Of a stretch of DNA of 28,907 nucleotides, positions 395 to 27,045 are shown one piece after another. How positions within the stretch are numbered: the stretch's first letter is position 1; the number at the start of each line of letters is the position of its first letter. The notes below the pieces were generated by a model. That model ran no database searches and was not told the DNA's origin. It saw only the letters and a program-made list of their open reading frames with translations. Both the position numbers and the translations under genes were made by a program. The DNA is taken from IMG/VR virus record IMGVR_UViG_3300028268_000006, positions 1 through 28,907 of that record; one strand, written 5' to 3'. The DNA comes from a virus.

Positions 395-398
395 TTTA

Positions 399-482: not shown

Positions 483-486
483 GTTT

Positions 487-571: not shown

Positions 572-578
572 TTTTAGC

Positions 579-665: not shown

Positions 666-668
666 GTT

Positions 669-680: not shown

Positions 681-693
681 GATTTTAGTTTGA

Positions 694-769: not shown

Positions 770-771
770 AT

Positions 772-846
772 GGGTCTGTAGCATAGTGATAATGCGCCTC
801 CCTGTCGAGGAGAACTACGACGGTTTGAATCCGTTCGGACCCGCCA
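772..846 (+). tRNA. tRNA-Asp(GTC)
   Basis: Acceptor GGGTCTG/CGGACCC with G73 and CCA. Anticodon loop CTGTCGA. T-loop TTTGAAT. Only two bases separate it from the preceding Met tRNA. Confidence 0.93.
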
Positions 847-1012: not shown

Positions 1013-1086
1013 CACCTCGTCGTCTAGGGATAGGACAGTACCCTTTCAAGGTATGAACGCGGGTTTGATTCCCGTCGAGGTGACCA
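1013..1086 (+). tRNA. tRNA-Glu(TTC)
   Basis: Acceptor CACCTCG/CGAGGTG with A73 and CCA. Anticodon loop CTTTCAA in GTACC/GGTAT. T-loop TTTGATT. The first base is C rather than the usual G. Confidence 0.9.
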
Positions 1087-1092
1087 AGTTGT

Positions 1093-1177
1093 TGTGAGGT
1101 GCGCCGAATGGGAAGGCACGCGGCTGTTAACCGCGCGACGAAAGTCACTGTGGGTTCGACCCCCACCCTCACAGCCA
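1093..1177 (+). tRNA. tRNA-Asn(GTT) with a class II-like variable arm
   Basis: Acceptor TGTGAGG/CCTCACA, G73 and CCA. Perfect anticodon stem CGCGG/CCGCG with loop CTGTTAA. Perfect T-stem GTGGG/CCCAC. Between the anticodon and T stems lie 14 bases (1136-1149) containing GAC-GAAA-GTC, a small hairpin arm. A normal Asn tRNA has 4-5 bases there. The arm and G73 are features seryl-tRNA synthetase uses, so the charged amino acid deserves a test. Confidence 0.88.
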
Positions 1178-1184
1178 ATTTAAT

Positions 1185-1259
1185 ACCCCGTTCGTTCAAT
1201 AGGTAGGACCGAACATTCTGAATGTTCCGATGGTAGTTCGAATCTGCTGCGGGGTGCCA
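1185..1259 (+). tRNA. tRNA-Gln(CTG)
   Basis: Acceptor ACCCCGT/GCGGGGT with G73 and CCA. Anticodon loop TTCTGAA in a perfect GAACA/TGTTC stem. T-loop TTCGAAT on a stem with two G.U pairs. Confidence 0.9.
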
Positions 1260-1337
1260 TCGCTGTCGAAGTGGAAGTACAAGCGACAAGACCGCAATAA
1301 TGGCTCAACTACTAGGGTCAGGTGCGGGCTGAATTTT

Positions 1338-1412
1338 ACCGTTGTATGCTAAATGGTAGGCAAAATGACTTTGAATCATTTGGTCCTGGTCCGAATCCAG
1401 GCGACGGTGCCA
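1338..1412 (+). tRNA. tRNA-Gln(TTG)
   Basis: Acceptor ACCGTTG/CGACGGT with G73 and CCA. Anticodon loop CTTTGAA in AATGA/TCATT. It follows Gln(CTG) after a 78-base spacer that has a weak TCGCT..AGCGA pairing and no gene. Confidence 0.92.
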
Positions 1413-1417
1413 TTTTA

Positions 1418-1432
1418 GTCCAGAAAATGGAC
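1418..1432 (+). repeat. 15-bp palindrome, copy 1 (GTCCAGAAAATGGAC)
   Basis: Arms GTCCA and TGGAC flank a 5-base centre. It lies six bases after the CCA of Gln(TTG). This is the reference form of a family found along the whole window, candidate binding site of a dimeric repressor or silencer. Confidence 0.7.
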
Positions 1433-1457
1433 AGAACGTTTTGTGTAATGGGTAGTA

Positions 1458-1497
1458 TGTTGCCTACTTCTTATCATAAAATGGATAGTAGGCAACA
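1458..1497 (+). other. perfect 11-bp stem-loop
   Basis: TGTTGCCTACT (1458-1468) and AGTAGGCAACA (1487-1497) are exact reverse complements around an 18-base loop. The loop holds ATCATAAAATGGAT, a weak relative of the 15-bp palindrome. No T-run follows, so a simple terminator is unlikely. It could be a processing site between Gln and Thr tRNAs. Confidence 0.5.
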
Positions 1498-1512
1498 AGA
1501 TGCTCATAAACC

Positions 1513-1588
1513 GCACCCGTGTCTCAGACGGTACAGAACGAGATTCGTATCCTCGTATTCATCGGTTCGATTCCGGTCGGGTGCTCCA
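1513..1588 (+). tRNA. tRNA-Thr(CGT)
   Basis: Acceptor GCACCCG/CGGGTGC, then T73 and CCA. Loop TTCGTAT in CGAGA/CCTCG, with an A.C mismatch at 31-39. T-loop TTCGATT. Confidence 0.85.
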
Positions 1589-1592
1589 GATC

Positions 1593-1880
1593 ATGAACAA
1601 AATGAAAAAATCGATTGAAATTCCAAGTAGCCTCCAGAAGGTATGGAATGAGTATCGTATCTTAAAGTCTCGATCAGATCATTTTGGGTACAAGTCCCTA
1701 CTGATAAATTCCTACCCGAAACCTACAGAAGAAGATATAAAACAAATGAAAGACTATTCTGAAAAGTACATTCGGCTGTATATTGAGTCCTGTCAAGTAT
1801 TAACCACTGATTTTCTTGGGGCCTACTGGGACGACGACGGTTCTTGTATCTTGAGTAATGGACTAAGATTTCAGTATTAG
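1593..1880 (+). CDS. hypothetical protein inside the tRNA array (95 aa)
   Basis: The reading frame fills the gap between Thr(CGT) and Thr(GGT). The start taken is the ATG at 1593, five bases after the tRNA CCA; ATG 1602 is an alternative, and neither has a clear Shine-Dalgarno sequence. The protein is charged, soluble and Tyr-rich, with a helical middle (KQMKDYSEKYIRLYIES) and an acidic WDDDGS near the C-terminus. I do not recognise a family. Its TAG stop contributes the first base of the next tRNA, a very tight packing that would couple mRNA processing to tRNA maturation. Confidence 0.55.
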   Translation: MNKMKKSIEIPSSLQKVWNEYRILKSRSDHFGYKSLLINSYPKPTEEDIKQMKDYSEKYIRLYIESCQVLTTDFLGAYWDDDGSCILSNGLRFQY

Positions 1881-1953
1881 CCACCATACGTCAGTGATAG
1901 ACCTCTATCTTGGTACGATAGAAACGCGGGTTTGATTCCCGCTGGTGGCTCCA
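1880..1953 (+). tRNA. tRNA-Thr(GGT)
   Basis: Acceptor GCCACCA/TGGTGGC, then T73 and CCA. Loop TTGGTAC in a perfect CTATC/GATAG stem. T-arm GCGGG/CCCGC. Its first base is the last base of the upstream stop codon. Confidence 0.9.
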
Positions 1954-1967
1954 AGTTAGGAGTTGGA

Positions 1968-2153
1968 TTGGAAACTGACGAAGCCAAGTCGTTTAAGTCG
2001 TGCAAAGAAGCCTTGAACTTCATCGATGGTCTTCATAAGAAAAAGACTCCATGTGGCTTACATAGTAAACTCCACGATGATGATACCACAGACTGGTGGG
2101 TAACGTGGAAACAAAAAACAAGAAAGTCTAAAAAAGACTTGACAAATTTATAA
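1968..2153 (+). CDS. small charged protein (61 aa)
   Basis: The start chosen is TTG at 1968 because AGGAG (1957-1961) lies six bases upstream and earlier in-frame starts fall inside the Thr tRNA. The product is Lys- and Asp-rich with a WWVTWKQK segment and a basic C-terminus. No family is recognised. The promoter at 2139-2166 overlaps its last codons, so the next transcript begins just past this gene. Confidence 0.5.
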   Translation: METDEAKSFKSCKEALNFIDGLHKKKTPCGLHSKLHDDDTTDWWVTWKQKTRKSKKDLTNL

Positions 2154-2166
2154 AGTGTGGTATCCT
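2139..2166 (+). promoter_or_regulatory. sigma70-like promoter
   Basis: TTGACA (2139-2144), a 16-base spacer ending TGTGG, then TATCCT (2161-2166). The -35 is a consensus match and the TGTGG block is shared with other promoter-like sites in this phage. It would start a transcript near 2173 covering the second half of the tRNA array. Confidence 0.65.
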
Positions 2167-2172
2167 AAGATT

Positions 2173-2377
2173 GTAATTCGGTGCTGGTGCCCACAAGAGG
2201 CCAGATGATTGATAGCCCTAGTGTCAAGGGCCGAGGGAAGACACCACCGAAACAAGTTTTAGTTTTGTCGCACTCTAGAGGATGACAAAAACTGTAGGGT
2301 GGCAAACTTGCAGGAACAAATCATCCGCCTTTGCCAGGGAAACCGATGACGTTATATCATTCGGGCGACAAATTTTT
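2173..2377 (+). ncRNA. structured leader after the promoter, no gene
   Basis: The predicted transcript opens with TTCGGTG (about 2177), which pairs with CACCGAA (about 2245). Inside is a GCCCT-7 base loop-AGGGC hairpin. A second stem, AGTTTTGTC/GACAAAAACT, lies near 2267-2294, and TGGCAAA/TTTGCCA near 2301-2337. There is no T-arm or CCA, so these are not tRNAs. Confidence 0.4.
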
Positions 2378-2458
2378 GCTAGATTGGCTCAGTGGCGACA
2401 GCACCGCACCTGTAATGCGGCACGCAACACGAGGGTTCGAGTCCCTCATCTAGCCCCA
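2378..2458 (+). tRNA. tRNA-Thr(TGT) with C33 and a long variable loop
   Basis: Acceptor GCTAGAT/ATCTAGC, then C73 and CCA. D-stem GCT/AGC, anticodon stem CCGCA/TGCGG and T-stem GAGGG/CCCTC are all intact. The loop is CCTGTAA, so position 33 is C instead of the nearly universal U. The variable region (2421-2430) has 10 bases rather than 4-5. Confidence 0.85.
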
Positions 2459-2461
2459 TAT

Positions 2462-2476
2462 CGTCTAGAAAATGGA
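2462..2476 (+). repeat. 15-bp palindrome, copy 2 (one mismatch)
   Basis: GTCTAGAAAATGGAC lies four bases after Thr(TGT), the same placement as copy 1 after Gln(TTG). Confidence 0.5.
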
Positions 2477-2552
2477 CAACAATCTCGGCGAGTATGGCTC
2501 GTCTGAGGGGTGCGCGGGGTACCCAGGAGTGATCCAAAACCCCGACAATTTT
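2477..2552 (+). other. folded spacer, no gene
   Basis: Two hairpins are visible: CTCGGCGAG..CTCGTCTGAG near 2483-2508 and GGGGT/ACCCC near 2516-2542. No T-arm. Confidence 0.3.
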
Positions 2553-2627
2553 GGGTTGGAAGCCAAACGGTGCGGCTCGTGACTGTGGATCACGGTGTAG
2601 AGGGTTCAACTCCCTCCCTTCCCTCCA
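2553..2627 (+). tRNA. tRNA-His(GTG) with imperfect acceptor
   Basis: Anticodon stem CGTGA/TCACG with loop CTGTGGA and T-arm GAGGG/CCCTC are perfect. The acceptor GGGTTGG/CCTTCCC has two central U.U mismatches, and the discriminator is T, whereas bacterial His tRNA uses G-1:C73. Function as a His acceptor is uncertain. Confidence 0.75.
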
Positions 2628-2671
2628 AGCAGCCGAGAAATGCGGGTTCGAGTCCCGCTGGTAGTATACCA
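2617..2671 (+). pseudogene. tRNA-Gly relic fused to tRNA-His
   Basis: The end of the His tRNA runs into CCAAGCAGCCGA, a perfect T-arm GCGGG-TTCGAGT-CCCGC and a terminal ACCA. CCAAGCAGCCGA and ATGCGGGTTCGA match the 3' half of the Gly(TCC) tRNA at 4682-4763. There is no 5' half, so this looks like a recombination scar. Confidence 0.5.
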
Positions 2672-2878
2672 ATGTACAAGGTATTGACAGGTGGACGGAG
2701 TAAATCCTGTCGCCATCATCTAAGGAAGGATCTCGGCATAATTTAGTCGTGAAACTCAGTTCGATTCTGAGTCCCTATGGGGATCTTCCAATGGTAGGAT
2801 GCGACAAAACCGGAAATGCGGGATTCGATGCCCACCCTCGGGTAGAGGTCGTCTAAGGAGGACTCCGGTATAAATTTT
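2672..2878 (+). pseudogene. degenerate tRNA pieces, no intact gene
   Basis: A T-arm CTCAG-TTCGATT-CTGAG near 2756-2772, a D-arm-like TTCCAATGGTAGGA near 2787-2800 and a T-arm-like GCGGGATTCGATGCCC near 2818-2833 occur without matching acceptors or anticodon arms. GACAGG/CCTGTC forms a hairpin near 2686-2711. I see no ORF. Confidence 0.4.
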
Positions 2879-2950
2879 GGGCCAGCCTCCGAAGAGGAGA
2901 AACGCTTTGCAAGCGATTCGCGGTGGGTTTAACCCCCACTTGGTCCACCA
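2879..2950 (+). tRNA. tRNA-Ala(TGC)
   Basis: Acceptor GGGCCAG/TTGGTCC with A73 and CCA. Anticodon loop TTTGCAA with an imperfect stem (position 28-42 is A.A). T-arm GTGGG/CCCAC with loop TTTAACC. The D-arm is short. Confidence 0.85.
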
Positions 2951-2952
2951 AG

Positions 2953-3049
2953 TTTGTACGAGGCTATTGATAGTAACTCCTGAGCCGGGTTTGGGTGACT
3001 GCTGCAAAAGCGTTAAAGGCCAATTGCAGTCCCCTCTCGTACAAAGCCA
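2953..3049 (+). ncRNA. CCA-ended folded RNA that is not a standard tRNA
   Basis: TTTGTACGAG (2953-2962) and CTCGTACAAA (3036-3045) are exact complements, followed by G and CCA like an acceptor end. Inside, GGG-T-GACTGC pairs with GCAGTC-CCC. There is no T-loop. A TGCAAAA run invites comparison with Cys(GCA), the one missing isotype, but no valid anticodon stem forms. It may be a decayed tRNA or a tRNA-mimic RNA. Confidence 0.4.
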
Positions 3050-3168
3050 TTTTCGGTAAAGGTCGGAAACGTAATTCCTTTTGCGGTTGGTAGTGTTGGC
3101 CTCTCACGGAGAGAATGTCCAACTGAGTAAATCCTTCCGTTCCGGTAACCAGTTCCGGAGTTAGTTTA
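3050..3168 (+). other. spacer with tRNA-like fragments, no gene
   Basis: Contains GTTGG..CCAAC near 3089-3124, a CTCT-CACGG-AGAG hairpin and CCGG..CCGG near 3142-3158. AGTAAATCCT also occurs in the relic region near 2699. No complete tRNA. Confidence 0.3.
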
Positions 3169-3244
3169 GGGCAGTGAGTTTGCGCGGTCGGAACGGAGAT
3201 CTGAAAAGTCTCACGGCGCGGTTCGACTCCGCGACTGCCCACCA
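3169..3244 (+). tRNA. tRNA-Phe(GAA)
   Basis: Acceptor GGGCAGT/ACTGCCC with A73 and CCA. Loop CTGAAAA in GAGAT/GTCTC. T-arm with loop TTCGACT. Confidence 0.93.
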
Positions 3245-3245
3245 T

Positions 3246-3319
3246 CGGAGTGTAGTGTAAAGGCAACATCCGAGTTCCGGGAACTCGTGTTCGGGTATCG
3301 TGATCCCGCACTCCGACCA
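3246..3319 (+). tRNA. tRNA-Pro(CGG) with C33 and altered T-loop
   Basis: Acceptor CGGAGTG/CACTCCG with A73; C1-G72 and A73 are Pro identity elements. Anticodon stem CGAGT/ACTCG with loop TCCGGGA, so position 33 is C. The T-loop reads ATCGTGA with a mismatch at its closing pair instead of TTCRANY. Confidence 0.85.
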
Positions 3320-3324
3320 TTTAT

Positions 3325-3402
3325 CCGAGTGTAGCGAAGCCTGCGTAACGCGTCTGCTTTGGGAGCAGAAGATCGGGGGTTCAAATCCCTCCACTCGGAC
3401 CA
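3325..3402 (+). tRNA. tRNA-Pro(TGG)
   Basis: Acceptor CCGAGTG/CACTCGG with A73 and CCA. Loop TTTGGGA in TCTGC/GCAGA. T-loop TTCAAAT. Near twin of Pro(CGG) in the acceptor stem. Confidence 0.94.
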
Positions 3403-3409
3403 ACTTTAA

Positions 3410-3485
3410 GCCCGGTTAGCTTAAGTGGAAAGAGCACAAGGTTGCGAACCTTGATATAGGCGTTCAACTCGTCTACTGGGTACCA
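3410..3485 (+). tRNA. tRNA-Arg(GCG)
   Basis: Acceptor GCCCGGT/ACTGGGT with A73 and CCA. Anticodon stem CAAGG/CCTTG with loop TTGCGAA. GCG is unusual: most bacteria read CGU and CGC with an inosine-modified ACG tRNA. A GCG tRNA needs no deaminase. Confidence 0.87.
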
Positions 3486-3490
3486 TTTAC

Positions 3491-3566
3491 GGCCCCATCG
3501 GCAATGTACAGTCAATCTCGCTTCGAACGAGAAATAGTCTAGGTTAGAGTCCTAGTGGGGCTACCA
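3491..3566 (+). tRNA. tRNA-Arg(TCG)
   Basis: Acceptor GGCCCCA/TGGGGCT with A73 and CCA. Loop CTTCGAA in a perfect TCTCG/CGAGA stem. The T-loop is TTAGAGT, with A at position 56. Confidence 0.9.
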
Positions 3567-3570
3567 TTTT

Positions 3571-3640
3571 AGGGGATGATCCGAGATCAAATCGGTCTCC
3601 AAAACCTTTTAGAGGAGTTAGACTCTCCTATCCCCTGCCA
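3571..3640 (+). tRNA. tRNA-Trp(CCA)
   Basis: Acceptor AGGGGAT/ATCCCCT with G73 and CCA, as in bacterial Trp tRNA. Loop CTCCAAA on a shortened stem. T-loop TTAGACT. Confidence 0.88.
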
Positions 3641-3645
3641 AGTTC

Positions 3646-3800
3646 GTGTTGAGTAAAGGTCTGAGTTGCGTCACTGGTTTCCGCGCTCCTGAAGACTCCA
3701 TGCAGGGGAATAGAATCCGCCGTGGACCAAGTCCGAAGGCATTTCGGTGGACATGTCCGAAGAATATTATTACGGAAAAGCGGAGCGCACTCAACACGAT
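3646..3800 (+). ncRNA. large structured RNA-like segment, unknown
   Basis: CGTGTTGAGT (about 3646-3655) pairs exactly with ACTCAACACG (about 3789-3798) across about 150 bases. A second stem, GCGCTCC/GGAGCGC, lies inside it, and the core has CCGAAGGCATTTCGG and repeated GGAC/GTCC arms. It sits between Trp and Met tRNAs with no ORF of note. The nested long-range pairing is what an independently folding RNA would show. I see no group I core motifs in it. Confidence 0.5.
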
Positions 3801-3807
3801 TCGATTT

Positions 3808-3878
3808 GCCGTGTTCCCCAGAGGGGGTGAAGATCTCATAAGTCTTTGGATTGGGTTTGATTCCCAAGTACGGCACCA
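3808..3878 (+). tRNA. tRNA with CAT anticodon (elongator Met or Ile2)
   Basis: Acceptor GCCGTGT/GTACGGC with A73 and CCA. Loop CTCATAA in AAGAT/GTCTT. T-arm TTGGG/CCCAA. A G1-C72 pair excludes the initiator. Whether C34 is modified to lysidine (Ile, AUA) cannot be told from sequence. Confidence 0.9.
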
Positions 3879-3890
3879 AGAAAGGAAAAC

Positions 3891-4037
3891 ATGAACCAAG
3901 AAGTAAGAGTCTATCCGTACGAACACGACTGCCCGAAGTGTGGAGCAAAGGCTCCGGAGTCGTGTCACATTTTCGCGGCAGGTGTGTATTGTGCCGAACG
4001 CATACAGAAAGCAAAAGAAAACACCAAATCCATTTAA
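3891..4037 (+). CDS. zinc-ribbon-like microprotein (48 aa)
   Basis: ATG at 3891 is preceded by AAAGGA (3881-3886). The product has CPKCG at residues 14-18 and further C26, H27 and C34, enough ligands for one zinc site, then a Lys-rich tail. The gene fits exactly between two tRNAs. The stop codon lies inside palindrome copy 3. Small zinc fingers of this kind are common among phage early proteins; the function is unknown. Confidence 0.6.
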   Translation: MNQEVRVYPYEHDCPKCGAKAPESCHIFAAGVYCAERIQKAKENTKSI

Positions 4038-4042
4038 TGGAC
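4028..4042 (+). repeat. 15-bp palindrome, copy 3 (AT-symmetric centre)
   Basis: ATCCATTTAATGGAC overlaps the end of the 48-residue ORF and precedes the next tRNA by seven bases. Confidence 0.5.
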
Positions 4043-4049
4043 AGTTTTA

Positions 4050-4140
4050 GCCGGAACCCCGAGGTGGGAGCGGAGATTTATAAACTCTGTAGACGGTAGA
4101 TGACCGTTGCTTGTGGGTTCGAATCCCACTTCCGGTTCCA
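4050..4140 (+). tRNA. class II-like tRNA, probable anticodon TAT (Ile?)
   Basis: Acceptor GCCGGAA/TTCCGGT and T-arm GTGGG-TTCGAAT-CCCAC are sound. The anticodon stem has four pairs plus an A.A at 31-39, leaving loop TTTATAA, anticodon TAT. A long variable arm (ACGG..CCGT) gives 91 bases, a Leu/Ser-like size, while the D-arm is unusually short. The amino acid is uncertain: Ile by anticodon, Leu or Ser by shape. Confidence 0.7.
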
Positions 4141-4141
4141 T

Positions 4142-4217
4142 GCTCTCGTAGCTCAGTTGGAAGAGCAACTGACTCTTAATCAGAAGGTCGGGGGATCGTT
4201 TCCCTCCGAGAGCACCA
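4142..4217 (+). tRNA. tRNA-Lys(CTT)
   Basis: Acceptor GCTCTCG/CGAGAGC with A73 and CCA. Loop CTCTTAA. The T-loop is ATCGTTT, non-canonical at positions 54 and 58. Confidence 0.9.
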
Positions 4218-4223
4218 AATCTA

Positions 4224-4297
4224 GCCTCGTGAGTGTGGTGGTGCATAACGGGTCTTTACCCCGTTTGGATACAGTTCGATTCTGTAGCGAGGCACCA
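4224..4297 (+). tRNA. tRNA-Lys(TTT) with C33
   Basis: Acceptor GCCTCGT/GCGAGGC with A73 and CCA. Anticodon stem ACGGG/CCCGT, loop TCTTTAC, so C at 33 and TTT at 34-36 with A37. Canonical T-loop. Confidence 0.87.
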
Positions 4298-4301
4298 ATT
4301 T

Positions 4302-4376
4302 GCGCCTGTCGTCCAACGCATAGGGCCTCACTCCTCTAAAGTGAAGACGAGGGTCGGACTCCCTCTGGGCGCTCCA
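4302..4376 (+). tRNA. tRNA-Arg(TCT) with C33
   Basis: Acceptor GCGCCTG/TGGGCGC, then T73 and CCA. Anticodon stem TCACT/AGTGA with loop CCTCTAA (C33). The T-loop is TCGGACT, lacking T55. Confidence 0.87.
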
Positions 4377-4381
4377 GTTTT

Positions 4382-4456
4382 GGTCTCGTAGTTCAACGAA
4401 TAGAACGGTTGTTTCCTGAACTTCAGATCTGAGTTTGACTCTCAGCGAGACTCCCA
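4382..4456 (+). tRNA. tRNA-Arg(CCT)
   Basis: Acceptor GGTCTCG/CGAGACT, then C73 and CCA. D-stem GTTC/GAAC. Anticodon stem GTTGT/ACTTC has two U.U mismatches; loop TTCCTGA. T-arm CTGAG/CTCAG is perfect. Confidence 0.82.
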
Positions 4457-4496
4457 AAAATAAATATTTAGAATAGTGAACAAAACAAGAAGTTTG

Positions 4497-4515
4497 GTCG
4501 TATAGTTCAAGTGGG
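4497..4515 (+). pseudogene. tRNA 5' fragment
   Basis: GGTCG.ATAGTTCAA copies the start of Arg(CCT) at 4382 (GGTCTCGTAGTTCAA) but is cut off by the next tRNA. Probably a deletion scar. Confidence 0.35.
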
Positions 4516-4591
4516 GAGAGCGTAGATTAGTGGCTAAATCGGCTGGTCTACACCCAGTTCATCGTAGGTTCGAGTCCTACCGTTCTCACCA
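4516..4591 (+). tRNA. tRNA-Val(TAC) with C33
   Basis: Acceptor GAGAGCG/CGTTCTC with A73 and CCA. D-stem GATT/AATC. Anticodon stem GCTGG/CCAGT with loop TCTACAC, C at 33. T-arm GTAGG/CCTAC. Confidence 0.87.
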
Positions 4592-4598
4592 AGTTTAC

Positions 4599-4675
4599 TG
4601 GCGGATAGCTCAATGGCTTAGAGCCCTGAACTGATAATTCAGAGGTTGACAGTTCAAGTCTGTCTCCGCCAACCA
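4599..4675 (+). tRNA. tRNA-Ile(GAT)
   Basis: Acceptor TGGCGGA/TCCGCCA with A73 and CCA. Loop CTGATAA in CTGAA/TTCAG. T-arm GACAG/CTGTC. Fully canonical. Confidence 0.95.
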
Positions 4676-4681
4676 AGTTAT

Positions 4682-4763
4682 GCGGGAGTCGCTCAATGGT
4701 GGAGCCTCTGCCTTCCAAGCAGCCGACCTAGTCATGCGGGTTCGAATCCCGTCTCCCGCTCCA
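4682..4763 (+). tRNA. tRNA-Gly(TCC) with a long variable arm
   Basis: Acceptor GCGGGAG/CTCCCGC, then T73 and CCA. Loop CTTCCAA in CTGC/GCAG. The variable region is 12 bases (4724-4735) with GAC-CTA-GTC, the same GAC/GTC mini-stem as in the Asn tRNA at 1093. T-arm GCGGG/CCCGT. Last tRNA of the array. Confidence 0.88.
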
Positions 4764-4794: not shown

Positions 4795-4853
4795 CAGACC
4801 GATTGGTCTGCGAGTGGGGCCGGTCTACGACGCCCCCGTCAACCAAACCCCAC
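4795..4853 (+). other. leader hairpins before the first virion gene
   Basis: AGACC-GATT-GGTCT (4795-4808) and GTGGGG (4814-4819) pairing with CCCCAC (4848-4853) lie 18 bases before the start codon at 4871. No T-run, so a regulatory leader or RNA-processing boundary is more likely than a terminator. Confidence 0.4.
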
Positions 4854-5774: not shown

Positions 5775-6125
5775 ATGCCAAACTCACTCGTCTCGCTACC
5801 TATGATTATAGATACGGACATAACAACTTGGCGTAACTCTGCTGCTGTTGTTTCCGCCGGGTACACTACGGGTATCCGAGTCAAGAAACTTGTTGTTGCT
5901 GTAGGCCCTGGAGGGGCCTCTTCCGCAGGAACAGTTGCGATTACTGCTCCGTCCGATTCTTCTGTTCTTTATCCCCCTTTGATTATATCTGCCTCTATTT
6001 CCGCTAATTCTATTCTATATAGCGACGAACCTACCGATACTACCGGTACTCTTACTTGGCGTGACTTTGCGGTGACTGGGTTAACGGCCACGGGAACCAG
6101 ACTCACCATATATTGGACGGTTTAA
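5775..6125 (+). CDS. putative small virion protein (116 aa)
   Basis: A compact beta-rich, Thr/Ser/Ala-rich protein without Cys, signal or membrane segment. Motifs include GIRVKKLVVAVGPGG and LTATGTRLTIYWTV, reminiscent of stabilising or head-fibre proteins, but no family can be assigned. Its 3' end overlaps possible upstream starts of the fibre gene, so translation is probably coupled. Confidence 0.65.
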   Translation: MPNSLVSLPMIIDTDITTWRNSAAVVSAGYTTGIRVKKLVVAVGPGGASSAGTVAITAPSDSSVLYPPLIISASISANSILYSDEPTDTTGTLTWRDFAVTGLTATGTRLTIYWTV

Positions 6126-6127
6126 TC

Positions 6128-7402
6128 GTGAAGAAATCTTTTATAACTCTCGGATTCTGTTTGTCCATTTTCTGGACTGCTTCGGCCCAAACTCCTTCTG
6201 TTACGATTAACGGCACTCCTCCTCCATATACGTTTACTGGAGATGTTACTCAGACTGGGCAGACATTTAATTTTTCTTCGGGGACCGCAACTACCGCCAC
6301 TAGTATCACGGGAGGTGGTGCTGGGGCACAACTGTATAACACAGCGGCGAGTACGACGGCGTTCGTGTATCCGGCAACTGACACCAACGCGATGAATCTA
6401 GATGGCAATCGGACTGATTCCTATACCCCGGATGGGACACCTGAACGACCATACAAAACTCTTGCTCAACTTGTAACAGGTATGGCAAGTGTTACAGGTT
6501 CTTATGTCATCGCTTGCAACCCAACGACCACCGCCTACACATACACGGGCGCAGTAACGTTTCCGTCCTATCAGGGAACAATTATAGGCAATGGTTGCAA
6601 TTGGAACATCACTGGCAACGTGTCTATTCCCGGGGTCTATTTTATCTCCAACCTGTACACAACGATCACTGGAACGCTGTCCTACACCGGATCGAGTACA
6701 GCAGAAAAAGTTCGGATCGGCGGATCGCTCACGGTTTCTGGTGGTGTTACCACCAGTGGCTACGATCACTTCTTCGATATGAGTATCCTGTCGAACACGG
6801 TGGTTAACGTCGCCTCCGGTTCGACGCCTGTATTTACTAATGTGGTTGGTACCCCGCTTATCAAAACGGCTGCTGGATCAACGGCGGCAACGGTGGTGAC
6901 AATCATCGACAGCCAGTCTCTTGCGTCTGGCGCTTATACCAACGTTGACATGAGCAATGGCGGATTGGCAGTGATTCGCGGCTTTATCGCCACCAACAAT
7001 AACACGGTCCCAAATATCAACTTGGCCGGGTCGAGTGGGTCAAGCGCTTCTGTAGCAAGTTCTCTGGCAAGCGTGTCTGTTGTTTGGGCAGCCGCTGGCA
7101 GTTCGTATGTCTATATCGACAACGGATCGATTTACGGGTTGCTGACAGGCTCAAATCTGCTGACGCCGAACGGCCTGGGCATGTCTGCGCCAGGCACGAA
7201 TACGATGACGGTCAAGTCCGGCACGACCGGCGCGGCTACCTTCGATAGCGGCACGACCGGCGCGGTGAATGTGGGCACGGGCGCTAATGCCAAGACGGTA
7301 ACCATCGGCAACTCAACCGGGGCAACTGCGTTGATTCTGAATGCGGGAACGGCGGGGGGTAAGCGGTTCCGTCATCAGCACGGACGGAACCATGACGGCT
7401 AA
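6128..7402 (+). CDS. exported fibre-like protein, N-terminal part (frame-split)
   Basis: GTG at 6128 begins MKKSFITLGFCLSIFWTASA-Q, a textbook Sec signal peptide; an ATG at 6113 would add five residues and spoil it. The mature part is a 400-residue Thr/Gly/Ser-rich beta-solenoid-like stretch with no Cys clusters. Near 7354-7359 a run of six G separates this frame from the next: reading one base onward continues smoothly into the frame of the 959-residue ORF at 7341-10220, whereas this frame ends 14 codons later in basic nonsense (KRFRHQHGRNHDG). The two ORFs are best seen as one gene of about 1,360 codons. The signal peptide also encodes palindrome copy 5. Confidence 0.75.
   Translation: MKKSFITLGFCLSIFWTASAQTPSVTINGTPPPYTFTGDVTQTGQTFNFSSGTATTATSITGGGAGAQLYNTAASTTAFVYPATDTNAMNLDGNRTDSYTPDGTPERPYKTLAQLVTGMASVTGSYVIACNPTTTAYTYTGAVTFPSYQGTIIGNGCNWNITGNVSIPGVYFISNLYTTITGTLSYTGSSTAEKVRIGGSLTVSGGVTTSGYDHFFDMSILSNTVVNVASGSTPVFTNVVGTPLIKTAAGSTAATVVTIIDSQSLASGAYTNVDMSNGGLAVIRGFIATNNNTVPNINLAGSSGSSASVASSLASVSVVWAAAGSSYVYIDNGSIYGLLTGSNLLTPNGLGMSAPGTNTMTVKSGTTGAATFDSGTTGAVNVGTGANAKTVTIGNSTGATALILNAGTAGGKRFRHQHGRNHDG
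6163..6177 (+). repeat. 15-bp palindrome, copy 5 (inverse orientation)
   Basis: GTCCATTTTCTGGAC lies within codons of the signal peptide (Ser-Ile-Phe-Trp), 35 bases after the GTG start. Confidence 0.6.
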
Positions 7403-10220
7403 CAGCGATACGTTGATTCCCAGCCAGAAAGCCGTTGTGACTTACGTTGGAAACAAGATCAACGGTTTGGCGTGGCGCCCTGCCGTGCAGCACGCGGACT
7501 CGGCGACAACGGCTCCCGGAACGGCGATTGTGGGGCAAACAAGCTACACGTCGGATGGATTCGCCTTGGTGAACGGTGACCGCATCCTGTTTATGAATGC
7601 CAGTTCTGGAACTTATCTGAACAAGGTTTATACCGTGGCGGGCGTTGGAACTTCGATTACGCTGACATTGGCCACCGATGGGCAATCGGGAACAGGCGCG
7701 CCAACCAACGGCGATGCGCTTTATGCGACGCAAGGGACAGTCAATGGCGGAAAAATCTTTGTTTACAGCTCCACGTCAGCCACTTGGGTACAGGCTTCAA
7801 GCCCAGCTGGAACGCTGCTGGCGGCTAACAACCTAAGCGACGTATCGAATGCTGCCACCACAAGAGCAAATATCAGCGCAGCCAAGAGCGGGGCCAATAG
7901 CGACATCACATCGTTGACCGGATTGACCACTCCTTTGAGCACCGCGCAGGGCGGTACAGGCGCAGGTGTTTTGACGGGTTACCGGTACGCGAACGGGAGC
8001 GGCGCGGATACGGCCTCCACAACGATTCCATACTCTGCCTTGATTGGGGTAGCCTCCAGCGGAGCGAACTCGAATATCACTTCACTGACCGGATTGACCA
8101 CCGCGCTTCCGGTCAACGAAGGAGGAACGGGAGCGGCCACGGCGGCGGCAAATTCAGTGTTCGGAAACGCTACTGGATCAACGGCGGCACCTGGGTTTAC
8201 GCAGAATCCATCCGTTGTCACGTTGCAGGCCAGCAGCGCTATCACCACGCCGCTCTTCAACGCTTCGACTTGCACGGGTACGGCCCAGGCAGAGGTTTTG
8301 ACGCTTTCTCCTGCGCTTCTGTCGCAGGCGGTCAACACGGCGGTGCAATGCACGCCCGTAGCGGCCAATACAGGGGCAGGAGCAACGCTCAATGTAAATG
8401 GTTTGGGTGCCAGGACGATTACCAAGTGCGGCGGGCAGTCAATCGCAGCAAACGATTTAATTACCGGCACGGCAGCGTACTTCACCAGCACGGGCACGAC
8501 GTGGGAGCTACTCAATCCGATCGCTGGCGGGTGCGGGACTTCTACGAGCGGAGTGACTTCGCAATATGCGCTTTCTCAGATGACAGCGACGCAATCAGTA
8601 AGTACAGGAACAATTATTCGCTTCCCGGCTCCTACAGTTTCATCCGGCACGGATATATCCTATTCATCGTACACGTTCACACTGGCAGGCGGGAAGACCT
8701 ATCGCATCGTTTCATCCATTGGCTATAGCACTGCGAGCAGTAGCACTGGAGGAGGAACGGTGTATATAAGAACCGGGTCAACGGGAGGCAGTGGAACTAT
8801 TATAAGTCAATTCGCCGCCGACCCTAATAGCTCTACCACTCAGTACATATCTAGCCCTAACTTGGGTTATTTTCTGTATGCTCCATCGGTAAGCACAACC
8901 ATTCATCTTGAATCTGGTGGAGGTATAGGCTCAGTCGGGGCCTACAGCGAATATCCATGGATTTCAATTGAAGAGATCCCCGCCACAACCTCACTGCCAG
9001 CAGGCAGCGCAACGGGGAACACTCTAGCGGGCCTGAAACTCGGCACGGACACCGGCACGGCACAGGCGCACGTCGTGGCGTTAAGCCCGGCGATCACGTC
9101 AAATCAAGCGGGAACCGAAGTGTACTTTATTCCTGCGGCGGCAAACACGGCCACAGCTCCTACACTGGCGGTGAATGGGCTTACTGCGATGACAATCACC
9201 GTCTGCGGAACCAGTGCGGCGGCGGTGGGAGACTTAGCCACAAGCACGATTGCCGATGTGGTGAGCGATGGAACGTACTGGCAGTTGCAAAATTCGAAGG
9301 TTACGATTTGCGGTTCTACGGCTACTACGCTGACGGCGAATGGAGGGGCGAACACAGCTATTAGTGGAATCAGCACAAGCGGTGTGGGGGTGTCTGGTAA
9401 CAGCACGGGTAATTACGGTGGGATATTTTCAGGTAGTTACGGCGTAGAGGGAATCAGCGCAAATGGTAGCGGCTACGGTGTGTACGGTACCAGCACGAGT
9501 AACTACGGGGTGTTTGGTCTGTCCGTGAGCGGCGTGGGAGTGATAGGACAGCAAAATGGCGCACTTACTGCAAATACTACGCAGCCTGTTTTATATGGCG
9601 TTCGTAGTAGCACACTAGGTTCCTACACTTCCACAGGAGCGATCATTCGCGGCGAAGACCTATCTGCATCTACCGGCAACCTGCTTGAATTGGTGAAGCA
9701 AGGGACTACCGATCTCAGTGTAGATAATGCCGGTGCGCTCCACGTAGGCCCAACAGTTTCTCCAACGTGGGGCTCTGCGTACAAAGTACTTGATTTGAAT
9801 AGTTATGGTGTTTTGGTGGGCTCATACAATGGTGCTGGCTGGACTGGTACATCTTATGGCCAATCTGAGTGGGGCCAAAACACTTACTTTACAGGCGCTA
9901 GTTATGCTGTAGGTACTGGCAATGCCAGTACAATTCTTCAGTCCGCAGGTCAACTGGAATTTGCAAACGCACCTTCCGTATCAGCGGGGGCGGTCCAAAC
10001 CTTTACGCCTCGTTTCGACATATTTTCAAGCGGAAACGTGGCTATCGGCACAACCACGGACGCAGGGTACAAACTTCAGGTTGCAGGCACAATTTCAGTC
10101 AACAGTGGCACTAGCCAAGTCTACCGCTGTGCGTCGGATGGGAATCTCAAGGCGGGTCAATTGACCACTAACAGTTCAGATTGTGGCACATCAGTGGCAT
10201 TGGGTTTGTATGTACGATAG
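7341..10220 (+). CDS. fibre-like protein, C-terminal part (959 aa)
   Basis: An ATG at 7341 exists but has no ribosome-binding site; the frame more likely continues the gene at 6128 through the G6 run. Tail-fibre repeats are clear: SLTGLTTPLSTAQGGTG and its variant LTGLTTALPVNEGGTG, then GVYGTSTSNYGVFG-type glycine turns near 9380-9560 and a tail-tip style AIGTTTDAGYKLQVAGTI near 10035-10100. A roughly 85-residue domain occurs twice (near 8270-8530 and 9045-9310), each starting CTGTAQA or DTGTAQA and containing TxxVNGL and a late Cys-Gly. No chaperone (S74) domain follows. GC content is visibly higher in 6500-8500 than in the flanks, suggesting modular exchange. Confidence 0.8.
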   Translation: MRERRGVSGSVISTDGTMTANSDTLIPSQKAVVTYVGNKINGLAWRPAVQHADSATTAPGTAIVGQTSYTSDGFALVNGDRILFMNASSGTYLNKVYTVAGVGTSITLTLATDGQSGTGAPTNGDALYATQGTVNGGKIFVYSSTSATWVQASSPAGTLLAANNLSDVSNAATTRANISAAKSGANSDITSLTGLTTPLSTAQGGTGAGVLTGYRYANGSGADTASTTIPYSALIGVASSGANSNITSLTGLTTALPVNEGGTGAATAAANSVFGNATGSTAAPGFTQNPSVVTLQASSAITTPLFNASTCTGTAQAEVLTLSPALLSQAVNTAVQCTPVAANTGAGATLNVNGLGARTITKCGGQSIAANDLITGTAAYFTSTGTTWELLNPIAGGCGTSTSGVTSQYALSQMTATQSVSTGTIIRFPAPTVSSGTDISYSSYTFTLAGGKTYRIVSSIGYSTASSSTGGGTVYIRTGSTGGSGTIISQFAADPNSSTTQYISSPNLGYFLYAPSVSTTIHLESGGGIGSVGAYSEYPWISIEEIPATTSLPAGSATGNTLAGLKLGTDTGTAQAHVVALSPAITSNQAGTEVYFIPAAANTATAPTLAVNGLTAMTITVCGTSAAAVGDLATSTIADVVSDGTYWQLQNSKVTICGSTATTLTANGGANTAISGISTSGVGVSGNSTGNYGGIFSGSYGVEGISANGSGYGVYGTSTSNYGVFGLSVSGVGVIGQQNGALTANTTQPVLYGVRSSTLGSYTSTGAIIRGEDLSASTGNLLELVKQGTTDLSVDNAGALHVGPTVSPTWGSAYKVLDLNSYGVLVGSYNGAGWTGTSYGQSEWGQNTYFTGASYAVGTGNASTILQSAGQLEFANAPSVSAGAVQTFTPRFDIFSSGNVAIGTTTDAGYKLQVAGTISVNSGTSQVYRCASDGNLKAGQLTTNSSDCGTSVALGLYVR

Positions 10221-23629: not shown

Positions 23630-23797
23630 ATGAGTTTTTCACCAGCATCAATCGTAACTTCCGGGGCGCTTCCGAACTTAGTAGCAATTCACTATGAACG
23701 TGAAGCGATTCCTAACCTGTATCCGCCTTTGGGCTAGGACGGAGTTATGAAGAAGGGCGTAGTTTTTACGGAAGGCGCAAACGCCCTTCCTCAGCAT
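23630..23797 (+). CDS. major capsid protein, exon 1 with internal TAG
   Basis: MSFSPASIVTSGALPNL begins a typical capsid N-arm. The frame reads NLYPPLG, then TAG (23735), then stays open for 30 codons to the 5' splice site. The last exon bases CTCAGCAT (23790-23797) pair with GTGCTGAG (23811-23818) in the intron, an 8-bp P1 with the required U.G at the cut. Confidence 0.75.
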
Positions 23798-26422
23798 TGG
23801 ATGTTTTCTTGTGCTGAGAACCAATCTGACTAAATCCGTTAATCCCTGTAGACAAGTTCCAGAGAATATGGTATACTTATCTAGAAGTTAAAAACAGACA
23901 AGACGGAGCGAAGATTTCCATGAACGAAACACGAAAAGAAAATTGGGCGTATTTAGCAGGATTGCTCGATGGAGAAGGTTGTTTTACGATTACGGGTACC
24001 TGGAAGAAGAGAAATCCAGCACCTAAAACTGCCGAAGGAAGCGAAGTATACTTCCACATGAATTTGATTATCAGCCTGTACAATAACGATCTTTCTGTTA
24101 TGAAATGGCTGGTTCAACATTTCGGAGGCGTTTATTACGTACATCATCCTTCCAAAAAACCTACCCATAAAGTGGGATATTCTTGGCACCCAAAAGGAGC
24201 TAAGAACAAAGAACTTCTTATTCTCGGTGTTCTCCCCTACATGATAATAAAGAGAGAACAAGCTAAAATATCTTTAGAGTATCTTCGGCTGAATGGTGCA
24301 AATGCTGTCAACCAGAGACTTGAGATGCGGGAAAGAATACAAACACTTAATGGGCACGGCATGGGAAAACGCCAAACGACTAATATGTCAGACCGACCGG
24401 AAGATGGCCGGAAGATAGAGTCTGGACTCGTAGGTGACTACGAGAGTGAGCTTGTGGTGACGCAAGTAGTGCCAGATTACGTTAACAAAGTAATCTATGC
24501 CCCCTAAACAAAACGGACGAAACAAAAGCCCCTGCCCCTACGTCAGGGAAACCAAATCCAATTCTACACCTACGCTCTGCTTGCCGCAAACCTTAACCAG
24601 GCGGGGGAAGGTACCGTAGGATCTCCAATCAGCGAATCCAGCACTAAGATCGTGGCTACGATTGGTCAGTACGCTGACTTTATCAATAGTTCGGACTTGG
24701 CGCTTGATGTCGCAATCGATGACCCTGGTTTGCTACAGAGTCTCGCGAATGAACTTAACTACCGCTTGGCTTTGACTCTCAACACGCTGGTTCAGCTAAC
24801 CGCTGATTCTGCTGTTGCGGTTGATAACCAAGTTAACATCCAGTTGGCCAATGGATCTTACCTCACTGCGAATAACCTTCGCTCTGCTGTACAGTCCTTG
24901 GTTAGCGTAAATGCTCGGCCTCTCGTGGACAACAAATTTGGTGGCATTATCCATTATCAAAACTATCACCAAGCGGCGTAAGCCGTATATAGGGTGGATA
25001 TAAAATTTGAGCTAAATCGGGGAACCTCTCTAGTAGACAATCCCGAGGAAAGACTCCTTAACAATTCGAAATAGTCGAAAGGATACGAGATGTATCAGGA
25101 AGATAAGACTAAATGGTCGTATATGGCCGCTTTAATTGATGGTGAGGGTTGTATCTCCATCTACCGTAGACTGAGTGACGGCGAGAAATATACGCGAGTT
25201 CACAAAGTCAAAGCCAACACTAACCCGTATAATCAGTTTAGTATGCGGGTGCAGGTTACCAACACCGATCTTAGATTGATGAAATGGCTAATCGCAAACT
25301 TTGGCGGGGTTTACTACCAGAAAACACAAGGAAACGGCAAACACAAAGCCGCTTACGAGTGGAGACCTAAAGGTAGATCCAACGTAGAGAAGTTACTGCT
25401 GGGAATTCTCCCGTACATGATTATCAAACCGGAACAAGCAAAAATCGCGCTTGACTATATTCGGATGACAATCGGTAACGAAAGGAACCCAGAAAAGCGT
25501 AACGAGATGTATCACCGTATGCGCATCCTGAACCAAAAGGGAGAATCCGTAGAGACTAATACGCTCGACTGTCCAGATAATGGACAGATGATAGAGTCCG
25601 AACTCGGTTGCGAAGCCGAGAGTGAAGATCAGGTGACTGATCTAACGTGGGCGGAAAAGAAGGCGAAGCTAGAAGTGGAAAATCTGGAAGCGGAGAAATC
25701 CGATAGTTTGGAAAGATTCCGGTTCGAGATTGCCCACCCTACCTACTTCCCGCGTTAATCCTAAACACAATTACCTAATGTTGTTCGCGACATCCTGAAC
25801 GATACGAGTTACAACGGTCTTACCGACATTGTAAAGCGTTCGGACGAGATGAGGGCTATGCTGTTTGAACTGCCGAAGAACGAGGATGTTATTTCGTTTG
25901 CTGGCGTGAAGTTCAAGCAGACATCGACTGCGCCGACAGTAACTATAAGTGGTAACACTTATTACAACACCTATGAACAAGACGTAGCTTAAGCGGGTGA
26001 CTGCTTTCGAACACAGCCCAAATTCGGTGGATAACTCTTAGGAGTCAATACCGAGCCAAGCCCCGAAAGGGGAAGGTGTAGAGACTAGAGGGGCTGCTCC
26101 TGAAAAGGATGATGGTATAGTCCGAACTGTGCGGCGACGTACAGAGGTCGATGGAAACAATCGGCCCCGCCCGTTAGGGCGAGTAACAAAATTGATCTTT
26201 GGTGATGACGCTATCTTCTCGGTATTCCTTGGCAAGAACCCCGAGGACGGTAGCAAAAACTATAAATTGTTTATTCAAAGTGCACCAGATCAGGGCTCTG
26301 TATCTGATCCAGCTCACCAAATTGGCGGATGGGTAAGTTACAATGTTCGCTATACGAACACGCTCCGTCCTGGCAGCACAATGACTCTAAGACGCATACA
26401 ATCAGAGACTTCCAACTCGTAA
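23630..26422 (+). CDS. major capsid protein, four exons with three group I introns
   Basis: Proposed exons: 23630-23797, 24526-24954, 25774-25989 and 26195-26422, all phase 0, giving about 346 codons. The product shows the HK97-fold MCP pattern of phages with a LPNLVAIHYER N-terminus: QHK|PLPLRQGNQIQFYTY across junction 1, GTVGSP and TIGQYADFI, GGIIH|PNVVRDILNDTS across junction 2, and IFGDDAIFSV then GSVSDPAHQIGGW at the C-terminus. Exon 1 contains an in-frame TAG at 23735-23737 that splicing does not remove. AAAGGA lies before the ATG. Exon limits for intron 3 are less certain (5' site 25972 or 25989). Confidence 0.85.
23735..23758 (+). other. candidate recoding gap in the MCP (GGC-TAG ... 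GGC)
   Basis: A GGC codon is followed at once by TAG; an in-frame GGC recurs at 23756-23758 with GGAG (23741-23744) between. This arrangement parallels T4 gene 60, where a Gly codon before UAG is the take-off site and an identical codon the landing site. Readthrough or a nonfunctional gene are alternatives. Confidence 0.35.
23849..23877 (+). promoter_or_regulatory. promoter inside intron 1
   Basis: TAGACA (23849-23854), 17 bases ending ATATGG, TATACT (23872-23877). It would transcribe the endonuclease ORF at 23920 independently of the late capsid transcript. Confidence 0.45.
23920..24507 (+). CDS. LAGLIDADG homing endonuclease, intron 1 (195 aa)
   Basis: The motif LAGLLDGEGCF lies at residues 12-22 with the metal-binding acidic residue. 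A single motif means it acts as a homodimer. It is followed by the usual fold blocks (LSVMKWLVQHFGGVYYVHH; LLILGVLPYMIIKREQAKI; basic tail). Such enzymes cut intron-less alleles to drive intron spread and some also act as maturases. Residues after about 150 are encoded by the intron's P7-P9 core, so the C-terminus is constrained by RNA structure. Close relative of the ORF at 25090. Confidence 0.9.
   Translation: MNETRKENWAYLAGLLDGEGCFTITGTWKKRNPAPKTAEGSEVYFHMNLIISLYNNDLSVMKWLVQHFGGVYYVHHPSKKPTHKVGYSWHPKGAKNKELLILGVLPYMIIKREQAKISLEYLRLNGANAVNQRLEMRERIQTLNGHGMGKRQTTNMSDRPEDGRKIESGLVGDYESELVVTQVVPDYVNKVIYAP
24526..24954 (+). CDS. major capsid protein, exon 2
   Basis: Reads KPLPLRQGNQIQFYTY onward through EGTVGSP, TIGQYADFINSSDLAL and NELNYRLALTLNTLVQL, ending FGGIIH. 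The open frame continues 24 bases into intron 2 (YQNYHQAA-stop), which is not capsid sequence. Confidence 0.82.
25090..25758 (+). CDS. LAGLIDADG homing endonuclease, intron 2 (222 aa)
   Basis: MAALIDGEGCI at residues 12-22 is the catalytic and dimerisation helix. It shares with the ORF at 23920 the blocks LMKWLIANFGGVYYQ, WRPKG and LLGILPYMIIKPEQAKI, so the two are paralogues. AAAGGATACGAG precedes the ATG. The C-terminal 70 residues are encoded over P7-P9 and include an unusual charged helix (EKKAKLEVENLEAEKSDSLE). Confidence 0.9.
   Translation: MYQEDKTKWSYMAALIDGEGCISIYRRLSDGEKYTRVHKVKANTNPYNQFSMRVQVTNTDLRLMKWLIANFGGVYYQKTQGNGKHKAAYEWRPKGRSNVEKLLLGILPYMIIKPEQAKIALDYIRMTIGNERNPEKRNEMYHRMRILNQKGESVETNTLDCPDNGQMIESELGCEAESEDQVTDLTWAEKKAKLEVENLEAEKSDSLERFRFEIAHPTYFPR
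25571..25585 (+). repeat. 15-bp palindrome-like copy that is the intron P8 stem
   Basis: GTCCAGATAATGGAC matches the family, but lies exactly in the P8 position of intron 2, which explains its symmetry. It may not belong functionally to the dispersed family. Confidence 0.4.
25774..25989 (+). CDS. major capsid protein, exon 3
   Basis: PNVVRDILNDTSYNG then IVKRSDEMRAMLFELPK and GVKFKQTSTAPTV, ending TYYNTYEQDVA before TAA in intron 3. No start codon of its own. Confidence 0.8.
25990..26194 (+). mobile_element. group I intron 3, no ORF (about 205 nt)
   Basis: Core AAATTCGG..ACCGAGCCAAGCC, P6-like CCCC-GAAA-GGGG, P7 strands GACTA (26083-26087) and TATAGTCC (26116-26123), then P9 hairpins GGTCGAT/ATCGGCC and CGCCC-GTTA-GGGCG. 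With cuts at 25989 and 26194 the exon ends are T and G, frame is kept, P1 is 5 of 6 pairs and P10 AUCU pairs. An alternative is T25972 with G26183. The catalytic core is unmistakable; only the boundaries are open. Confidence 0.83.
26195..26422 (+). CDS. major capsid protein, exon 4
   Basis: IFGDDAIFSVFLGKNPEDG, KLFIQSAPDQGSVSDPAHQ and IGGWVSYNVRYTNTLRPG match the C-terminal part of HK97-type capsid proteins. Ends at TAA 26420-26422. Confidence 0.82.
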   Translation: MFGDDAIFSVFLGKNPEDGSKNYKLFIQSAPDQGSVSDPAHQIGGWVSYNVRYTNTLRPGSTMTLRRIQSETSNS

Positions 26423-26534: not shown

Positions 26535-26562
26535 GAAACCTCATGGTCAGATGAGGAGAAAC

Positions 26563-27045
26563 ATGGAAACCAAGATTTGTTCAAAGTGCGGAGAGACTAA
26601 ATCGATTGATGACTTTAGTAAACGAAAAGCGTCTAAAGACGGTTATCAACCTCTCTGTAAGACATGTAAAAAAGAGTACAACACGCAGTGGGCGGTGGAA
26701 GACAAGGATAGCCCACGAAGACCGAATCGAAACAGTTTCTTCAACGCAAAGAAAAGGTCCAAGAAGACAGGGGTTCCCTTTACGATTACAGAATCCGGCT
26801 TCATTGTCCCGGAAATATGTCCAATTCTAGGTATTAAACTAGAAAAAGGACGCATTAATGGGTCGTTGGATACATCCCCAAGCCTGGACAAAATTCGCCC
26901 GGAACTCGGGTACGTACCGGGAAATATCGCTGTTATATCGTACCGAGCGAACCGCATCAAGAACGATGGTACTGCCGAAGAACACCGAAAGATCGCAGAC
27001 TGGATGGACGCCCAACTAAAGGAGACCCCCAATGTTCGGTCCTGA
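26563..27045 (+). CDS. HNH-type homing endonuclease (160 aa)
   Basis: Start at ATG 26563 because GAGGAG (26553-26558) is correctly spaced; ATG 26551 lies inside that signal. N-terminal zinc finger CSKCG and CKTCKKEY near residues 5-39. The C-terminal block (SPSLDKIRPELGYVPGNIAV then SYRANRIKND..EEHRKIADWM) is the signature of free-standing phage HNH endonucleases, where the Asp-Lys-Ile and Asn residues bind metal and DNA. Sits just after the intron-rich capsid gene, a typical homing location. Confidence 0.85.
   Translation: METKICSKCGETKSIDDFSKRKASKDGYQPLCKTCKKEYNTQWAVEDKDSPRRPNRNSFFNAKKRSKKTGVPFTITESGFIVPEICPILGIKLEKGRINGSLDTSPSLDKIRPELGYVPGNIAVISYRANRIKNDGTAEEHRKIADWMDAQLKETPNVRS

Follow-up and report, generated by a model that had tools for sequence, protein, structure and literature searches.

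Putative coreless mini-introns accompany full group I introns in a phage major head protein gene

A group I intron is generally assumed to come with its own ribozyme. How, then, might a gene be restored when, beside complete introns of this kind, it also contains an insert far too short to hold a catalytic core? The question is raised by the major head protein gene (positions 23630-26422, plus strand; stop codon 26420-26422) of a virus record in IMG/VR, IMGVR_UViG_3300028268_000006, the whole 28,907 bases of which form the window analyzed here. An earlier note on this DNA had described a capsid gene interrupted by three group I introns, with capsid-like motifs restored upon exon joining. The three introns are indeed present, but the gene has four interruptions, and the first of them, a 52-nt coreless insert at 23719-23770, had been missed. 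Exon borders were obtained by spliced protein-to-DNA alignment against L006, an intron-less relative which is 95% identical to the window capsid once all four interruptions are removed, and which aligns continuously over every junction; the note had regarded the lack of such a homolog as grounds for giving up its interpretation. The exact junctions, established by sequence comparison as is the identity of the gene, are 23718/23771, 23797/24516, 24954/25774 and 25974/26195. Exon joining does restore a capsid: the joined exons form a continuous protein matching the PHROG 1357 (phrog_1357) major head protein (E 1.1e-12, residues 11-291), and share 39% identity with the major head protein of Tunturiibacter phage Tunturi_3, which is encoded without introns. 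The gene is laid out as follows:

23630-23718, plus strand: exon 1, MSFSPASIVTSGALPNLVAIHYEREAIPN and CT of Leu30 (spliced alignment to L006, PHROG 1357)
23719-23770, plus strand: putative coreless mini-intron of 52 nt that contains an in-frame TAG and shifts the frame by +1; missing from intron-less relatives
23771-23797, plus strand: exon 2, 27 nt, G of Leu30, KAQTPFLS and AT of Met39
23798-24515, plus strand: group I intron 1, 718 nt, ending in G (64.7 bits with the R1 model described below, Rfam 19.1 bits)
23920-24507, plus strand: open reading frame (ORF) for a LAGLIDADG homing endonuclease, 195 aa, within intron 1 (PF00961 E 6e-6; phrog_5046 E 2e-20)
24516-24954, plus strand: exon 3, G of Met39 and TKQKPLPL...FGGIIH
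24955-25773, plus strand: group I intron 2, 819 nt, last base A (R1 75.4 and 44.2 bits)
25090-25758, plus strand: LAGLIDADG ORF, 222 aa, within intron 2 (PF00961 E 7e-4, below its cut-off; phrog_5046 E 5e-20)
25774-25974, plus strand: exon 4, PNVVRDILNDTS...GNTYYNTY (spliced alignment to L006)
25975-26194, plus strand: group I intron 3, 220 nt, no ORF, ending in G (Rfam 51.4 bits, R1 77.9 bits, covariation)
26195-26422, plus strand: exon 5 and stop, IFGDDAIFSVFLG...SETSNS (spliced alignment to L006)

The short exon 2 is read in a different frame from exon 1 (...AIPNL), from which KAQTPFLSM is separated by the 52-nt insert. Its residues K31, A32, T34 and P35 are invariant across the family, down to 38% identity, and it differs between the window and L006 by four synonymous and no non-synonymous changes. 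A single intron leading from exon 1 straight to TKQK was considered and rejected, as it would delete KAQTPFLSM, which is partly invariant in the family. Reading through or recoding the TAG of the insert was likewise rejected, since the following frame is off by one and meets TGA and TAG before the exon. Over the whole coding sequence, the window and L006 differ by 0.06 non-synonymous (dN) and about 2.0 synonymous (dS) substitutions per site, a dN/dS ratio of about 0.03, and the short exons that lie behind nine inserts of this type in the family accumulated 40 synonymous changes at 53 sites and three non-synonymous changes at 184 sites. Since the frame is broken without splicing, one might suppose that the inserts represent damage in a dead capsid gene, or errors of assembly. 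Such divergence values speak strongly to the contrary, as do the helices conserved with compensatory changes that are described below and two other metagenome contigs (L004 and L005), in which the gene structure is the same and the joined exons are 100% identical to those of the window; we consider the chances of a decaying or misassembled gene to be negligible.

What the insert does contain is a set of pairings to its own flanking exons. In addition to P1, which involves an internal guide sequence (IGS), and P10, there is a third helix, designated Px, between the middle of the insert and the 3′ exon:

23712-23718, plus strand: 5′-exon strand of P1, CUAACCU, ending in U opposite the G of the IGS
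23731-23737, plus strand: IGS strand of P1, GGGCUAG, pairing with 23712-23718 with one A.C mismatch
23724-23730, plus strand: intron strand of P10, CGCCUUU, directly 5′ of the IGS, forming 7 bp with 3′ exon 23771-23777, GAAGGCG
23752-23760, plus strand: intron strand of Px, GAAGGGCGU, forming 9 bp with 3′ exon 23781-23789, ACGCCCUUC

Thus, the insert has a P1 with a U.G pair at the 5′ site, a P10 and a terminal G, while neither Rfam nor R1 gives a group I core match within 23719-23770, which at 52 nt is too short for the catalytic core P3-P8. In P10, CGCCUUU/GAAGGCG of the window is replaced by AGCCUUU/GAAGGCU in L136, a compensatory change. Exon 2 is tiled with pairing strands, namely those of P10 (23771-23777) and Px (23781-23789) and, belonging to intron 1, the 5′ strand of P1 (23790-23797), and the minimum free energy fold of 23708-23822 (z -4.2) contains both Px and P1 of intron 1.

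The insert is not an isolated occurrence. In the set of relatives, which comprises 67 non-redundant capsid genes, we count 21 distinct mini-inserts of 32-59 nt at eight sites (29, 32, 40, 92, 185, 268, 297 and 310, numbered by residue of the reference capsid). The counts rest on our own aligner, whose output was adjusted by hand for a few contigs; in L016 and L137 (site 302) the aligner had misplaced inserts, which were corrected by eye, and 27-nt inserts in L254, L295 and L218 were set aside as in-frame protein variation. All 21 mini-inserts are preceded by U and end in G, boundaries which the aligner mildly favors, and all 21 hold an in-frame stop. At site 297 the junction is fixed by the tryptophan codon, as only exact splicing restores the invariant Trp298. 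Because a stop is present in every insert and the coding sequence is nevertheless under strong purifying selection, the inserts must be removed or otherwise avoided in expression; comparison of the sequences indicates that they are very probably removed as RNA and, with slightly less assurance, that removal proceeds by group I chemistry. Separately, L137 has near 4834-4843 a 10-nt insert, TTATAATTTG, which follows a T, ends in G and lies exactly at the full-intron site 293; it may be a remnant, an ultra-small intron or an assembly error.

Inserts of this kind could in principle stay in the mRNA and be skipped by ribosomes, as in translational bypassing of T4 gene 60 or of yeast mitochondrial byps. 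The bypass gap of T4 gene 60 is 50 nt, so that the length range of 32-59 nt would be fitting, as would the hairpins and the in-frame stop in every insert. Take-off and landing codons, however, match in only one of the 21 cases, and skipping of the insert at site 297 would delete the invariant Trp298 or replace it. Bypassing would also leave unexplained the P1 and P10 helices with U.G at the cut, the constant U and G ends, and the full introns occupying four of the same sites, and we judge it very improbable.

Pairing to the exons is a consistent property of these inserts. In 20 of the 21 distinct cases, P1, P10 and Px together score higher than in any of 60 shuffles of the insert. For Px, the mean score is 17.3 compared to 8.6 in shuffled inserts, while in 150 full introns it stays at background (7.5 vs 6.9 shuffled); P10 scores 13.5 in the mini-inserts and 5.5 in full introns. 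Both P10 and Px show compensated changes between relatives. A representative example, with slashes marking the splice sites, is the insert of L251, CAUGACU/auuuaagCUGCUU-GGUCAUG-caaacc-GAAGUGGU-agauauuG/AAGCAG-aa-ACCACUUC, in which CAUGACU pairs with GGUCAUG (P1), CUGCUU with AAGCAG (P10), and GAAGUGGU with ACCACUUC (Px). The smallest, the 32-nt insert of L137, reads GAAGGCU/GUUUG-GGCCUUU-uaaaucu-AUGAAGG-uauaaG/CAAAC-cc-CCUUCAU. Only 7 nt separate its IGS from Px, and another 6 nt follow Px, so that a P7 guanosine site would not fit within it.

This arrangement bears on whether the mini-introns could be self-sufficient minimal group I ribozymes, with the remainder of the fold provided by exon sequence, a mechanism suggested for the 63-75 nt PaSSU-type introns of Phialophora. 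They share with the fungal introns P1, P10 and a helix between mid-intron and 3′ exon (PM), and their exon pairings are stronger than those of full introns, which would be in line with such a role for the exon. Nevertheless, the insert of L137 has no space for the guanosine site, mini-introns were never seen in the 23 genes devoid of a full intron (0/23), and the one fungal mini-intron reported to splice in vitro required about 300 nt of downstream sequence to do so (PMC3160393). Overall, self-sufficiency appears rather unlikely.

Four of the eight mini-intron sites (32, 40, 185 and 310) hold a full group I intron at the exact same position in a relative (chance p 4e-4), so that the mini-introns look like full introns without the core. 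They occur in 19 of the 44 genes with full introns vs none of the 23 without (Fisher 1e-4, uncorrected for kinship), and a full intron is the first interruption to follow in all 20 cases that could be judged. The intervening distance is 16-52 nt in 17 of these 20; of 189 full introns, 20 have another at so short a distance downstream. Because of kinship the sequences do not count as independent observations, and p values serve here as guides. Given confinement to genes with full introns and placement close upstream of one, both reactions may well be performed by the core of the neighbor. We therefore favor, with moderate confidence, the view that these are coreless group I mini-introns which originated from full introns and are spliced by the group I pathway, probably with the core of the neighboring intron. 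That this core is borrowed in cis is suggested by the association only tentatively.

According to this model, the mini-intron would have kept no more of a group I intron than its substrate portion, namely P1, P10, Px and the terminal G. The 5′ exon, ending in U, would be paired in P1 to an internal guide starting with G; the bases just 5′ of the guide would pair in P10 with the start of the 3′ exon, and the segment following the guide would form Px with the 3′ exon just beyond P10, so that the P10 and Px pseudoknot would hold both splice sites together. Guanosine bound by a complete core, which would most likely belong to the full intron located immediately downstream on the same RNA, would cleave the 5′ site in P1, and the freed 5′ exon would then attack the 3′ site, while the downstream full intron would splice itself as usual. 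As to their origin, full introns may have lost their cores, which would be dispensable beside another core, with exon pairings growing stronger. The mini-introns could perhaps be classed together as non-autonomous group I introns of 32-59 nt with P1, P10 and a pseudoknotted 3′-exon helix, excised by the core of a neighboring full intron; such a class would be the group I counterpart of trans-dependent degenerate introns.

A variant of this scheme would draw the core in trans from whichever excised intron or other phage group I RNA is available, rather than from the downstream neighbor specifically. Group I cores can act in vitro on separate P1/P10 duplexes, mini-introns accompany full introns of several subtypes, and three of them are 150-182 nt away from the next full intron. 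Placement of 17 of the 20 at no more than 52 nt upstream of a full intron is, however, above chance, which makes supply in trans decidedly unlikely. Several observations do weigh against the favored view. The p value for proximity is only 0.02 when each site is represented by its one worst member, and three mini-introns (L136, site 29; L251; L293) are separated by 150-182 nt from the full intron that comes next downstream. A spliced copy of the window's mini-intron junction was sought in IMG/VR and none was found. Finally, for fungal mini-introns built in a similar way, splicing in vitro is reported with no group I core nearby (PMC3160393).

A covariance model built from 14 small introns of other contigs, none from the window (R1), finds all three cores (E 1e-20, 7e-20 and 7e-17): intron 1 at 24300-24463 (64.7 bits, with a marginal match of 12.2 bits at 23830-23947), intron 2 at 25441-25639 (75.4 bits, with its 5′ half at 25002-25148, 44.2 bits), and intron 3 at 26010-26160 (77.9 bits). 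A search of the whole window with R1 yielded no match outside the three claimed introns. The Rfam Intron_gpI model, which had been put forward as a check, gave a mixed outcome: intron 3 alone passes the cut-off (25965-26144, 51.4 bits), intron 1 is seen weakly (24210-24444, 19.1 bits), and intron 2 is missed. In the family of intron 3, helices P3-P9, including the P7 pseudoknot, are paired in 97.5% of cells, and 36 of 52 pairs show changes on both sides (0 of 500 shuffles), a signal destroyed by sliding the partners. The earlier placement of three group I cores in one capsid gene is therefore borne out by R1 and by this covariation. In intron 1, P1 is formed by CUCAGCAU and GUGCUGAG (IGS 23811-23818, 5′ strand 23790-23797), with P7 at about 24378/24415; in intron 2, P1 is UAUCCAU/GUGGAUA (IGS 24994-25000) and P10 is UAGG/CCUA. 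The base at the 5′ splice site is U in all three, and the last base is G in introns 1 and 3 and A in intron 2. At site 185, every full intron (intron 2 of the window and those of L021, L055, L076 and L078) ends in A rather than in the canonical G, unlike mini-introns at this site, which end in G; several introns at site 72 (L060, L062, L065 and L081) seem to end in A as well. Introns 1-3 are group I introns with a conserved core, and self-splicing is predicted for them from sequence. The LAGLIDADG endonucleases of introns 1 and 2 probably spread those introns.

The capsid gene as a whole is an intron hot-spot, which the earlier note overlooked. Full introns are absent from 23 of the 67 genes and number from one to eight in the other 44, with the extremes, L070 and L079, carrying eight full introns and one mini-intron, or nine interruptions. 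About 50 full-intron sites can be distinguished by site and phase, a few of them perhaps being alignment noise, and 33 of the 46 relatives' records searched contain matches to Rfam RF00028. Portal and scaffold-like genes adjoining the capsid gene align uninterrupted in the same contigs, identifying the capsid gene as the target.

The window comes from a tailed soil phage, probably one with a host in Acidobacteriota. Tunturi_3 is a podovirus of Acidobacteriota, and the contig of another intron-less relative, L294, is assigned to an Acidobacteria metagenome-assembled genome. The HK97 fold was not confirmed, as the AlphaFold model had a pLDDT of 33.5 and the best PDB match, a capsid, had an E of only 0.03. 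Directly 3′ of the capsid gene is a free-standing endonuclease VII-like HNH gene (26551-27045), and HNH-related sequence is found inside the L028 intron at site 231 and near the capsid gene of other relatives. Elsewhere in the window, 24 tRNA genes with many anticodons are densely clustered on one strand (59-4763), and a pair of long repetitive tail-fibre-like ORFs (6113-7402 and 7341-10220) overlap in different frames, possibly due to a frameshift or a sequencing error. The L004 record (IMGVR 3300023228_000005, 28952 bp) represents the same virus, given its 100% identical capsid exons; its capsid gene is near position 4017 instead of 23630 and its length differs from that of the window by 45 bases, and the two records may be permuted versions of one genome.

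If the proposed interpretation is true, a compact, recurrent and covarying class consisting of splice helices only would show how far group I introns can shrink. The mini-introns make it testable whether one catalytic core serves two introns in one RNA, and offer about 20 natural sequences for the unsettled question of how tiny fungal introns splice. Standard searches for introns do not pick up inserts of 32-60 nt, which also disrupt gene calling, so that coreless introns may be going unnoticed elsewhere. With as many as nine interruptions over 981 coding bases, the capsid gene of these phages also offers an opportunity to study homing introns within a late gene that is essential.

Introns in phage capsid genes have been described before, and the earlier view that introns in a late structural gene are unusual needs some qualification. 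Introns in the major capsid gene of mycobacteriophage LittleE (Cluster J) and in a tail gene of BAKA were confirmed by reverse transcription PCR (PMC3706429). The LittleE intron resembles those of the window in being a group I intron in a major capsid gene with a U before and a G at its end, and is spliced late in infection; it differs in being single, in having an HNH endonuclease and no mini-introns, and in its unrelated host (PMC3706429). Three introns in one phage gene also have a precedent: individual genes of phage Twort and Bastillevirinae contain as many as three group I introns (PMC11878797 and its reference 34). They are similar to the window gene in having several such introns per phage gene, but these are polymerase, terminase or reductase genes with at most three reported per gene, and no coreless members were found in the portion consulted (PMC11878797). 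The capsid gene of Faustovirus E12 is likewise riddled with introns, with 13 exons, some very short, and 12 introns, five of them group I and the other seven read as spliceosome-like; it belongs, however, to a eukaryotic giant virus, and its introns measure 396-3,256 nt (PMC6247863). Coreless mini-introns in phages were not previously reported in the literature searched, which left out most subscription papers. Their closest known counterparts are the small degenerate group I introns of fungal small-subunit (SSU) rRNA, namely PaSSU of Phialophora americana (67 nt) and those of Arthonia (63 nt) and Porpidia (78 nt), which similarly lack the core P3-P6 and have a P1 with G.U at the 5′ site, a P10, and a PM pairing equal in position to Px (PMC3160393). 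The fungal introns occupy two sites in rRNA, are 63-78 nt long, end in U and have a P7-like hairpin with a G-C guanosine site (PMC3160393), for which the shortest phage mini-intron has no space; those of the phages, by contrast, measure 32-59 nt, occupy eight sites in a protein gene, end in G in all 21 cases, and accompany full group I introns.

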